From Cupriavidus basilensis (GTDB lineage Bacteria; Pseudomonadota; Gammaproteobacteria; Burkholderiales; Burkholderiaceae), in the NCBI RefSeq assembly GCF_000832305.1, contig NZ_CP010536.1, positions 124,001 through 188,000 of the forward strand: 64,000 nt of DNA. The letters run 5' to 3'. The stretch's first letter is position 1. Each line of letters starts with the position of its first letter. The notes below the pieces were generated by a model, which saw only the letters and a program-made list of their open reading frames with translations, searched no databases and was not told the origin of the DNA. Position numbers and translations under genes: made by a program. Below are positions 55,359 through 57,607 of this stretch, piece after piece.

Positions 55359-55847
55359 TCAACTGCCTTGGCGTACCTTGGACAGCAGCTTGGTGGTGGA
55401 GCGGTCGTGCAGGAACGCGATGGCATGCGCCTGGCCGCCCCAGCTGCGCACCAGGCGGGTTTCTTCCAGCGTATCGATGTCGTAGTCGCCGCCCTTGACA
55501 TAGATGTCCGGGCGCACCAGCCGGATCAGCTCGACCGGCGTTTTCTCGCGGAACATCACGACCAGATCCACCGATGCCAGCGCCGCGATCAGCGCCATGC
55601 GATCCGATTCGTGGTTCAGGGGACGGTCGTCACCCTTGCCGAGCATGCGCACTGACGCGTCACTGTTGACGCCGACTACCAGGCTGGCGCCCAGGGCCTT
55701 GGCTTGCGCCAGGTAGGTGGCGTGGCCGCGGTGGAGGATGTCGAAGACGCCGTTGGTGAAGACTAGCGGGCGGGGGAGGGGGGCTAGTTTTTCCGCTAGC
55801 GCGGTTGGGTTGTCGGGTGGGACTAGCTTGGATTCGAAGGTGGACAT
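55359..55847 (-). CDS. rfaE2: D-glycero-beta-D-manno-heptose 1-phosphate adenylyltransferase (stand-alone HldE C-terminal domain)
   Basis: This nucleotidyltransferase activates heptose-1-phosphate with ATP for LPS inner-core synthesis. The 162-residue protein has FTNGVFDILHRGH with the HxGH motif (39-42), VGVNSDASVRMLGK, and a C-terminal FLHDRSTTKLLSKVR, where the ST-K motif is typical. In E. coli this domain is fused to the HldE kinase; here it is separate, as is usual in this group, and the kinase gene is not in the window. It converges with the SPOR gene after 28 bases. Confidence 0.94.
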   Translation of the reverse strand: MSTFESKLVPPDNPTALAEKLAPLPRPLVFTNGVFDILHRGHATYLAQAKALGASLVVGVNSDASVRMLGKGDDRPLNHESDRMALIAALASVDLVVMFREKTPVELIRLVRPDIYVKGGDYDIDTLEETRLVRSWGGQAHAIAFLHDRSTTKLLSKVRQGS

Positions 55848-56028
55848 GGCGGGAGGGAGAGGCGTTGTCGTTGTGTTTGGGCGGCGGAGGGTTATGCGAT
55901 TGTGTTCGGGTGGGGGGTGGACTTCAATGTCAACTGTAGCTTTGGCTGCAACTTCAGCTGCAACGGCTTAACGTCAAGGTCAAAGGCTGAAAGTCAAAGG
56001 CAGTTTCACCTCCCCTGCGGGGAGGCGA

Positions 56029-56058
56029 CCTACTTTCTTGTCTCGCCAAGAAAGTAGG
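56029..56058 (+). repeat. 12-bp hairpin, left AAGTAGG box
   Basis: CCTACTTTCTTG (56029-56040) pairs perfectly with CAAGAAAGTAGG (56047-56058) around TCTCGC. The inverted partner at the right end (about 56533-56562) is CCTACTTTTTTG with CAAAAAAGTAGG around GCAAGA. The C-G pair of one copy is a T-A pair in the other, so pairing is kept. Confidence 0.8.
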
Positions 56059-56074
56059 CAAAGAAGCGACCCGG

Positions 56075-56203
56075 ATGGGGCGAAAGCCTCCTCGTCGCCG
56101 GACGAAAAGAGCGGCCGGAGGCCAAACTCGCATCGCCTTAAGGCGATACTCAAACATGGCCTCCTCGTTTCCGCTCCTTTCGCCCGGCGACGAGGCGCCC
56201 CAT
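56075..56203 (+). repeat. Long structured hairpin, left copy
   Basis: The outer stem is ATGGGGCG (56075-56082) with CGCCCCAT (56196-56203). The main 25-bp stem is 56090-56114 with 56171-56195 and has two mismatches. The inner stem is GGAGGCC (56117-56123) with GGCCTCC (56158-56164). The loop contains the 16-bp perfect palindrome ATCGCCTTAAGGCGAT (56132-56147). A seven-base bulge (56083-56089) lies on the 5' side only. Confidence 0.85.
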
Positions 56204-56387
56204 AACGGGAGATGAAAACCCAGACGGCTCGCTTCGCATCGCGGGCAGGTGATTTTCGCCTGGGGGCGCAAATCACGGCTACACCGAATAGTGATTTGAT
56301 CCCACTGGGTCGGCTGTGTTTCCCGCCTGGGGGCGGGAAACACCCAAGCGCGATGCGAAGCGAGCCGTGTAGGTGTTCAGAGGCCGT

Positions 56388-56515
56388 ATGGGGCGCCTCG
56401 GGATTTCACCAAAAGAGCGGAGAAGAGGGACCCATGTCTGAGTATCGCCTTAAGGCGATGCGAGTTTGGGTCCCGGCCGCTCTTTTGGTGAAATCCCGAG
56501 GGGGTGTCGCCCCAT
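56388..56515 (-). repeat. Long structured hairpin, right copy (inverted)
   Basis: The outer stem is ATGGGGCG (56388-56395) with CGCCCCAT (56508-56515). The main stem is 25 bp and perfect (56396-56420 with 56477-56501). The inner stem is GGGACCC (56427-56433) with GGGTCCC (56468-56474). The same 16-bp palindrome as in the left copy lies at 56444-56459. Relative to the left copy, about ten consecutive pairs of the main stem and the inner stem have changed on both strands together. Confidence 0.85.
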
Positions 56516-56664
56516 CCGGCGCGCCTTTTTTGCCTACTTTTTTGGCAAGACAAAAAAGTAGGTCGCCTCCCCGCAGGGGTGGTGAAACTGCAGTTGAAGT
56601 TGTAGTTGAAGTTAAGCCGTTGCAGTTGCAGCCACAACCAACCACCACTCAAATTCCAACACCC

Positions 56665-56743: not shown

Positions 56744-57607
56744 TTATGCCTGCGCCGGCTGCGCACCCCCCGCCGCCTGCAACCGCACATTCAACTCCTT
56801 CCGATACCGGTTCAGATCCTGCACGGTCTCGAAAGTGCGCTCGAACAGCAGCGACATATTGTGCAGGATCCGCTCGATCACCTTCTTCTCCCAGCCTTCG
56901 TCGAAGCGGATCTGCTCGTCGAGCCAGTGCTCGAGCCAGTCCGGGTCCGGCAGGCGCGACTGGATGGTGTCGTTGGGGAACAACGCCTTGTTGACGTGCA
57001 GGTTGGTCGGGTGCAGCGGCTTTTCAGTGCGGCGGGCAGAGGCCATCAGCACGCCGATCTTGGCGAAGGCCGAGCGGGCGCTGTCGCCGAACTGGTTCAG
57101 GTACTTTTTCATGTAGCGCAGGTAGGCGCCGCCGTGGCGGGCTTCATCCTGCGACAGGGTGCGGTAGATCTGCTTGATCACCGGCTCGGTGTGCCATTCG
57201 GCGGCACGGCGGTACCAGTGGTTGAGGCGGATCTCGCCGCAGAAATGCAGCATCAGGGTTTCCAGCGGCGGGGCCGGGTCGAACTCGAAGCGCACGGCGT
57301 GCAGTTCTTCTTCGGTCGGCACCAGGTCCGGGCGGAAGCGGCGCAGGTATTCCATCAACACCAGCGAATGCTTCTGCTCTTCAAAGAACCAGATGCTCAT
57401 GAAGGCCGAAAAGTCGGAATCGTGGCGGTTGTCGCGCAGGAACATCTCGGTGGCGGGCAGGGCCGACCATTCCGTGATGGCATTCATGCGGATCGTCTTG
57501 GCCTGGTCGTCAGTGAGCAGGCTCGGGTCGAAGGAATCCCAGGGGATGTCCTTGTCCATGTGCCAACGTACCGCTTCCAGCGATTTGAACAGTTCGGGGT
57601 AGAGCAT
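56744..57607 (-). CDS. Ferritin-like diiron protein (acyl-ACP desaturase-like)
   Basis: This 287-residue all-helical protein has a two-metal site pattern: Glu77-x-x-His80 (EEQKH) with Glu54 nearby, then Glu125 (FCGEIRLNH) and Glu155-x-x-His158 (DEARH). That arrangement fits ferritin-like oxidases and stearoyl-ACP desaturases. No membrane segment or signal is seen, so it is cytoplasmic. The substrate is unknown; a fatty-acyl group is a reasonable guess from the fold and from the lipid-related neighbours. The ATG at 57607 has AAAGG seven bases upstream. A strong terminator follows. Confidence 0.85.
   Translation of the reverse strand: MLYPELFKSLEAVRWHMDKDIPWDSFDPSLLTDDQAKTIRMNAITEWSALPATEMFLRDNRHDSDFSAFMSIWFFEEQKHSLVLMEYLRRFRPDLVPTEEELHAVRFEFDPAPPLETLMLHFCGEIRLNHWYRRAAEWHTEPVIKQIYRTLSQDEARHGGAYLRYMKKYLNQFGDSARSAFAKIGVLMASARRTEKPLHPTNLHVNKALFPNDTIQSRLPDPDWLEHWLDEQIRFDEGWEKKVIERILHNMSLLFERTFETVQDLNRYRKELNVRLQAAGGAQPAQA

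Follow-up and report, generated by a model that had tools for sequence, protein, structure and literature searches.

A dispersed intergenic repeat of Cupriavidus that keeps a long hairpin through paired changes, with structural constraint on one strand

Palindromes dispersed through genomes are commonly regarded either as DNA sites or as passengers of RAYTs. ERIC, NEMIS/Correia, YPAL and MITE-like repeats are dispersed, intergenic units of ~100-150 nt that fold as a whole. Folding repeats of the MITE-like kind are also touched on in the available text of PMC3733652, according to which GTAG/CGTC-tagged REP superfamilies are sited between convergent and unidirectional genes, and G.T pairing in REP stems together with a 3' location is already taken as a sign of action as RNA; Cupriavidus, Ralstonia and Burkholderia are absent from its main text. 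Compensatory changes in REPIN hairpins are reported in the accessible part of PMC3116915, and the accessible part of PMC4666352, on the BoxC/PIT/TM intrastrand triplex motif, describes five closely spaced inverted pairs in E. coli, in each of which a type A motif is joined to another type.

Here we describe a repeat found in a window of 64,000 nt of the Cupriavidus basilensis genome (G000:C1:124001-188000). This repeat works like a REPIN, ERIC or Correia element, but neither tag, size nor a RAYT link makes it a REP. Like REPIN/RAYT systems, it consists of short non-coding repeats between genes, with inverted pairs of units, compensated hairpins and clusters (available text of PMC3116915). The inverted hairpin pairs of REP/REPIN type recur at all nine pair loci of G000 and at 16 of 16 pairs outside the genus, and the siting of REP/REPIN-like repeats, rarely in divergent gaps, is also found here (1 of 52 sites versus 50 of 188 sampled gaps). 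The repeat differs from REPINs in a hairpin of 110-145 nt instead of 20-40, in a pair spacing of 195-470 nt, in a fixed internal loop, and in that a Y1 transposase is missing from 6 of the 24 non-genus genomes bearing its motif or model. In contrast to the tagged REP superfamilies, it is untagged, longer and nested. No constant GTAG/CGTC was seen by eye at the ends of its main hairpin (H1) in 131 aligned units and the distant ones; GTAG does occur in the arm of a second hairpin (H2) in genus copies, and is not kept in two units from outside the genus (L172 in G344 and L183 in G139). With ERIC, NEMIS/Correia and YPAL the repeat shares intergenic, dispersed units of ~100-150 nt that fold whole, but its pairs are made of two unit types, and no clean target duplication was visible at the one site compared. 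It is not known to be related in sequence to ERIC, NEMIS/Correia or YPAL. The kind of evidence used here, G.T pairing and compensated hairpins, is already known. No account of the repeat family, its loop or its A/B pairs turned up in the available texts of the open-licence literature, which short sequence terms match poorly, including PMC2267715, PMC12306157, PMC2817692, PMC8632094 and PMC11109978.

Architecture and copies of the repeat

The element in the window is a non-coding composite of ~700 nt, built as an inverted pair in the gap between two minus-strand genes. One of these (55359-55847) encodes a cytidylyltransferase-like domain and is presumably rfaE2-like; the other (56744-57607) has weak desaturase and ferritin-like matches. 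From the outside in, each half consists of a degenerate hexamer-like tract, H3, H2, H1 and H0 (Table 1), and together they form a divergent pair of a type A unit on the left and a type B unit on the right. The sense strand is defined as the strand reading TGTCTGAG...CGAGTTT; written as RNA, the two sides of the loop are UGUCUGAG and CGAGUUU. No Rfam model matched the window at its gathering score, and the 12 matches below that threshold were mostly to microRNA precursor models.

Table 1. Positions of the parts of the inverted pair, numbered from the first nucleotide of the window
Feature	Position	Strand	Basis
Left outer tract, degenerate CAACTG/GTCAAAGG-like units	55934..56002	.	sequence; inverted 36-nt match to right tract, 81%
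H3 left, GTTTCACC and CCTCCCC/GGGGAGG hairpin	56003..56028	-	sequence, genus copies
H2 left copy, AAGTAGG hairpin	56029..56058	-	12-bp perfect arms
H1 left unit, type A: outer, 25-bp main and inner stems with apical palindrome	56071..56207	sense = minus	
H1 left main stem, arms 56090-56114 / 56171-56195	56090..56195	-	25 nt, 92% complementary
H1 left inner stem, 56117-56123 with 56158-56164	56117..56164	-	sequence
Left internal loop, minus-strand TGTTTGAG (56156-56149) and CGAGTTT (56130-56124) flanking palindrome 56132-56147	56124..56156	-	sequence; motif conservation
H0 hairpin GTGATTTTCGCC/GGCGCAAATCAC	56249..56276	.	repeat search
H0 hairpin GTGTTTCCCGCC/GGCGGGAAACAC	56316..56343	.	repeat search
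H1 right unit, type B	56384..56519	sense = plus	
H1 right main stem, arms 56396-56420 / 56477-56501	56396..56501	+	25 nt, 100% complementary
H1 right inner stem, 56427-56433 with 56468-56474	56427..56474	+	sequence
Right internal loop, TGTCTGAG (56435-56442) and CGAGTTT (56461-56467) flanking palindrome 56444-56459	56435..56467	+	motif scan, G000:C1:180435-180467
H2 right copy, AAGTAGG hairpin	56533..56562	+	repeat search
H3 right copy with GGTGAAAC	56569..56588	+	sequence
Right outer tract	56589..56641	.	sequence, repeat search

A sequence-only reading of this locus had described two inverted copies at 56075-56203 and 56388-56515. Both are there, with the inner stems GGAGGCC/GGCCTCC and GGGACCC/GGGTCCC, the 16-bp palindrome ATCGCCTTAAGGCGAT in each copy, and AAGTAGG hairpins that are one C-G/T-A pair apart. 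The left main stem, described there as 25 bp long, is not perfect, as 2 of its 25 positions are non-Watson-Crick. The paired changes between the copies are real, but the copies are not two independent adaptations: they are members of a concertedly evolving family of ~40.

In the 8.42-Mb genome G000, the 16-mer core has 45 sites with at most two mismatches (33 exact, eight with one and four with two) against a single site for the reversed 16-mer, so its recurrence is not due to chance. The 41 sites with 0-1 mismatch, one of them at C1:3434175, are units of one repeat and constitute the G000 unit set, the four two-mismatch sites being left out. There are nine pair loci, each with a type A and a type B unit spaced 312-323 nt apart and divergent on the sense strand in 9 of 9; single units, at 23 loci, are commoner than pairs. 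Of 60 genomes of the genus, 18 gave a match to a unit probe, several of them only a weak or partial one. At no more than one mismatch, the core was counted 37 times in G061, 24 in G068, nine in G076, three in G062, once in G021 and not at all in G063, and G023 has 30 exact sites. Seven genus genomes yielded 144 extracted units, with the core hits L137 and L141 excluded because they lack unit context. Outer tracts of variable length stand beside most of the genus copies displayed, and the outer parts of pairs are inverted relative to each other.

Multi-unit loci are not always divergent pairs. Direct tandem arrays of 3-4 units occur in G068 (L077, L135 and L138), with periods of ~346 and ~440 nt, and at L118 in G023 two direct units stand together with an inverted third one. 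Individual units have also been interrupted or shortened. In G000, L003 and L018 carry foreign IS-like DNA upstream of H1 at the same unit position, the two inserts being the same sequence (100% over 669 nt), and different IS-like DNA splits the AAGTAGG hairpin (H2) of L019. H1 or H2 is cleanly missing from the partner unit of L006, from L123 and from L145, and L202 keeps H2/H3 only; the junctions of hairpin-less units lie, by eye, at short direct repeats (GGCGC, GTCGCC), as if the hairpin had been deleted between them.

The repeat is present at some sites and missing from the same sites in close relatives. The window's own site has 30 orthologous loci, of which two are without the neighbour gene, seven are opposite-oriented and were left unscored, and 21 were scored. 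H1 is found at three of the 21 (G000, G061 and G023), G062 has an H2/H3 remnant only, and the core is absent from 17. One of the coreless loci, in G075, has an isolated H2-type hairpin motif, and among the unscored ones G076 has a unit (L147) at this site. A second site carries a unit in G061 but just a short gap in G000, G062 and G076. A clean target duplication was not visible at the one filled/empty site compared.

A BoxC/PIT/TM-like stretch, CCCTCTCCC..GGGAGAGGG..GAGGG, adjoins many single units in G000, G023 and G061, distal to H0. It is a neighbouring module here, not the H1 hairpin. The published BoxC/TM pattern is CCCTCNCCC-N3-6-GGGNGAGGG-N3-GGGNGAGGG; a loosened version, searched instead, was found beside 8/23 singles in G000, 11/18 in G023, 5/25 in G061, 0/1 in G021 and 0/18 in G062, G076 and the single units of G068 together; the 59 units in multi-unit loci all lacked it in the stretch searched.

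Paired changes and strand asymmetry

The repeat keeps its long hairpin through paired changes. Of 133 distinct full-length units, two truncated ones were dropped and 131 were aligned, and the scored structure was drawn from one unit, giving 50 pairs and 6538 pair cells. Standard pairs occupy 97.7% of the 6538 cells versus 86.9% in shuffles, and two-sided changes with pairing kept are found at 20 of the 50 pairs. Doubly changed cells number 661 against 170.8 in shuffles, and the covariation score is 0.282 against 0.083 in shuffles and 0.019-0.049 in slid controls, both kinds of control leaving relatedness in place; because of relatedness and conversion among the copies, neither cells nor combinations count as independent events, and the cell counts overstate the number of events. 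A foldable hairpin length of 110-145 nt is maintained across copies. Selection on structure, which had been proposed from the window pair alone, is thus supported by a genome-wide set of units that is compensated.

The copies of the repeat evolve in concert. Flanks of shared sites are mostly 90-98% identical between genomes, and stems differ at 17 of 17 G000/G061 and 6 of 7 G000/G023 orthologous sites. Arms are 10.2% and inner parts 2.4% different between G000 and G061, and the corresponding values between G000 and G023 are 8.9% and 1.3%. Since stem variants are species-specific and common to the copies, and chimaeric stems exist (e.g. L003 and L011), the copies appear to convert one another, and with such conversion many of the paired changes would be inherited blocks.

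Within the genus, the structural constraint acts on one strand. An A.C mismatch on one strand is a G.U (G.T) pair on the opposite strand, and the mismatch asymmetry names the folding strand. Over the 50 pairs and 131 units, the sense strand has G.U in 176 cells (22 pair-type combinations) and A.C in six cells (five combinations); helices 2-4 have 19 G.U versus two A.C combinations (p 2e-4). Unpaired columns are balanced, with A/G variation in 11 and C/T variation in 11, so mutation bias is not the cause of the G.U excess. The strand count of H2 rests largely on one boundary column and was kept out of the strand reading. Orthologous sites were compared at 17 singles for G000/G061 and seven for G000/G023, six of the latter reusing G000 units; 38 of 39 two-sided changes remain paired, and one-sided changes gave 22 G.U, no A.C and 18 other mismatches. 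Outside the genus, a strand-symmetric aligner counted 34 G.A, 3 C.U and 32 G.U versus 15 A.C in 29 units, the last comparison at p 0.019, not corrected for relatedness, and plain MFE counting in 49 units gave 123 G.U on the sense versus 117 on the antisense strand.

The G.U excess on one strand speaks for a single-stranded form; neither a cruciform nor fold-back copying without selection would be expected to produce it. Taken alone, the strand asymmetry does not tell RNA and single-stranded DNA apart. Of the two forms suggested earlier, RNA or a protein-bound cruciform, a single-stranded one is therefore favoured and the cruciform is not, G.U being nearly confined to one strand in the genus.

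The internal loop outside the genus

R1, a rough covariance model built on the hairpin of the genus and calibrated only briefly, found hits in 9 of 399 genomes of the order, eight of these being non-genus genomes, and the best E values range from 1.5e-5 to 4e-12. The stems of the non-genus hits are unlike those of the genus copies, and the apical hairpin is also different in most, those of G161 and G237 being similar to genus copies. Shared by the non-genus hits is an internal loop that flanks the apical hairpin with TGT[CT][CT]GAG (5') and CGAGTT[TC] (3'), with a variable inner stem, an asymmetric 5'-side bulge and a long outer stem around it. This loop was first seen by eye, and a later regular expression fixed its sides. 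In an alignment of 20 units (15 non-genus and five genus), 11 of 13 predicted pairs vary on both sides. The stems thus change, but 5'-UGUYUGAG-[apical hairpin]-CGAGUUY-3', the internal loop, stays the same. The palindrome loop, noted as unchanged between the window copies, is indeed near-constant within the genus, but its apical hairpin varies across the order and it is the surrounding internal loop that is constant. Such a cross-family comparison splits a possibly recognised part, the internal loop, from a purely structural part, the stems, and the loop motif offers a way of searching further genomes for the family.

Of the 399 order genomes, 40 contain the exact motif TGTCTGAG-N6-26-CGAGTTT, with at most nine copies outside the genus, and 13 contain the reversed motif, with one hit each, so part of the order-level hits is due to chance. 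By the filter applied, 10 of 29 non-own motif loci have no hairpin insert, although L245 among them does fold, and L231 passes the insert filter without a spanning stem. At the class level, the motif is found in 27 of 369 genomes versus 22 for the reversed control, a count near chance. At least four consecutive insert pairs are present in 10 of 38 class-level strings (own genome excluded), and shuffles of these strings gave a mean of 1.8 and a maximum of 8 in 2000 shuffles. These strings suggest that the motif extends beyond Burkholderiales to a few genomes (G535, G659, G477 and G488 among them).

Close pairs (<700 nt) outside the genus make up 18 rows, 16 of them distinct, with a spacing of 195-469 nt, and all 16 distinct pairs are divergent. 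The lengths of loop strings across genera leave all three remainders modulo 3. The two hairpins of the pair L259 (G121) enclose a further inverted repeat (AGGAGCCTGTCGGACTT...) at 1225-1392.

Genomic setting and competing explanations

The repeat almost never lies in divergent gaps. With gene calls from a codon model trained on the window, which left four ortholog groups inconsistent, 52 independent single sites from seven genomes fall into 28 unidirectional gaps, 23 convergent gaps and one divergent gap, and 188 sampled G000 gaps of 150-1500 nt into 114, 24 and 50, respectively. Orientation relative to the genes, in unidirectional gaps only, is 17 versus 11 (p 0.34), and in G000 alone 12 versus 2 (p 0.013). 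A co-directional upstream gene (67/81; 40/52) was rejected as a signal, being confounded, since convergent gaps always give one. At 29 of 41 independent single sites in G000, G061 and G068, the sense strand is directed against the replication fork (p 0.012; 19/23 in G000 and 7/11 in G068), which makes the foldable strand the leading-strand and not the lagging-strand template at those 29, given an origin at the contig start and a terminus near half, an assumption supported by GC skew in G000, backed by the loci alone in G061 and poorly backed in G068. The type B unit of a pair follows the direction of the fork in 8 of 9 pairs (G000) and 6 of 6 (G061), mostly at the same sites. The fork-orientation bias is not predicted by a purely RNA-level function.

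For the window element, we give about even weight to a reading as a divergent A+B pair of a dispersed, non-autonomous foldback repeat, whose sense transcript would fold and whose loop would be read by a protein. The working form would be a sense-strand transcript, probably a 3' transcript, because the repeat lies behind genes and its foldable strand is mostly not the lagging-strand template. The putative loop-reading protein might be a ribonuclease, an RNA chaperone or a mobilising enzyme; the UGAG/CGAG sides of the loop could form tandem G.A pairs, and the hairpins may act on mRNA 3' ends. Variants would spread between copies by gene conversion, so that stems look replaced in blocks. More generally, and tentatively, the repeat may represent an undescribed folded single-stranded class, probably RNA, with a UGUYUGAG/CGAGUUY loop in a long hairpin whose stems and apex are free; such a class would occur as divergent pairs in many Burkholderiales, perhaps also in other Gammaproteobacteria, and would be spread and kept by a putative non-RAYT loop-binding protein.

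The main rival, which we regard as rather unlikely, is mobile DNA of which one strand folds as single-stranded DNA and relies for its movement on a strand-specific enzyme acting in trans, as in REPINs. Only folding copies would then be copied onward, leaving compensated stems and a fixed recognition loop. G.T pairs are tolerated in DNA too, which counts for this rival. The recurrent divergent hairpin pairs (9/9 G000 loci and 16/16 non-genus), the filled and empty sites and the orientation bias to the fork also fit it, as do the compensatory changes in REPIN hairpins in the available text of PMC3116915. However, the foldable strand is the leading-strand template at 29 of the 41 singles, no clean target duplication was seen at the one compared site, and Y1_Tnp is not needed, having no match in 6 of the 24 motif- or model-bearing non-genus genomes (G235, G117, G161, G266, G409 and G198). 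All 20 genus genomes searched have a Y1_Tnp match, whether or not they carry the repeat, and none of five exact repeat marker motifs was found at six loci of the genus Y1 gene and two other Y1 loci. Dependence on RAYT was rejected on the six genomes without Y1_Tnp and on the marker-free genus Y1 loci. The RNA-or-DNA question of such repeats is brought to direct experiment with a defined bait.

It is also conceivable, but improbable, that there was no structural selection, and that one arm is copied from the other by fold-back template switching, with the product then spread by gene conversion. The species-specific stem variants at orthologous sites, the chimaeric stems of L003 and L011, and the arms and inner parts of G000/G061 sites, 10.2% versus 2.4% different, would all agree with such copying. 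It gives no account, however, of a loop kept across families amid stem turnover, or of wobble tolerance on one strand; the sequence-only reading had itself named fold-back copying as a challenge to selection, and this asymmetry is what the copying fails to predict. Long perfect or near-perfect palindromes and the fork-orientation bias would suit a double-stranded DNA site, either a protein-bound cruciform or a gyrase or nucleoid-protein site. We consider this highly improbable; a cruciform folds both strands, so G.T and A.C would be expected to be equal, and they are unequal in the genus. Barely credible is a short coding sequence starting ATG TCT GAG TAT CGC CTT behind a Shine-Dalgarno-like purine stretch. 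Open frames do cross the window element and a purine-rich stretch does precede the ATG, but the ATG has become CTG in 23 of 23 aligned G068 units, and coding was rejected on frame-shifting indels downstream of the ATG, on loop-string lengths not kept modulo 3 across genera, and on the absence of Pfam matches for the three ORFs scanned across the element.

In plasmid and phage collections no full copy was found, and the window element and L259 had no match; the phage collection also had no match to L241. L241 and L238 have short partial matches in four plasmid records each. A weakly matching Y1_Tnp/RAYT-like gene lies at G000:C1:4115307-4115573, with likely orthologs in the genus.
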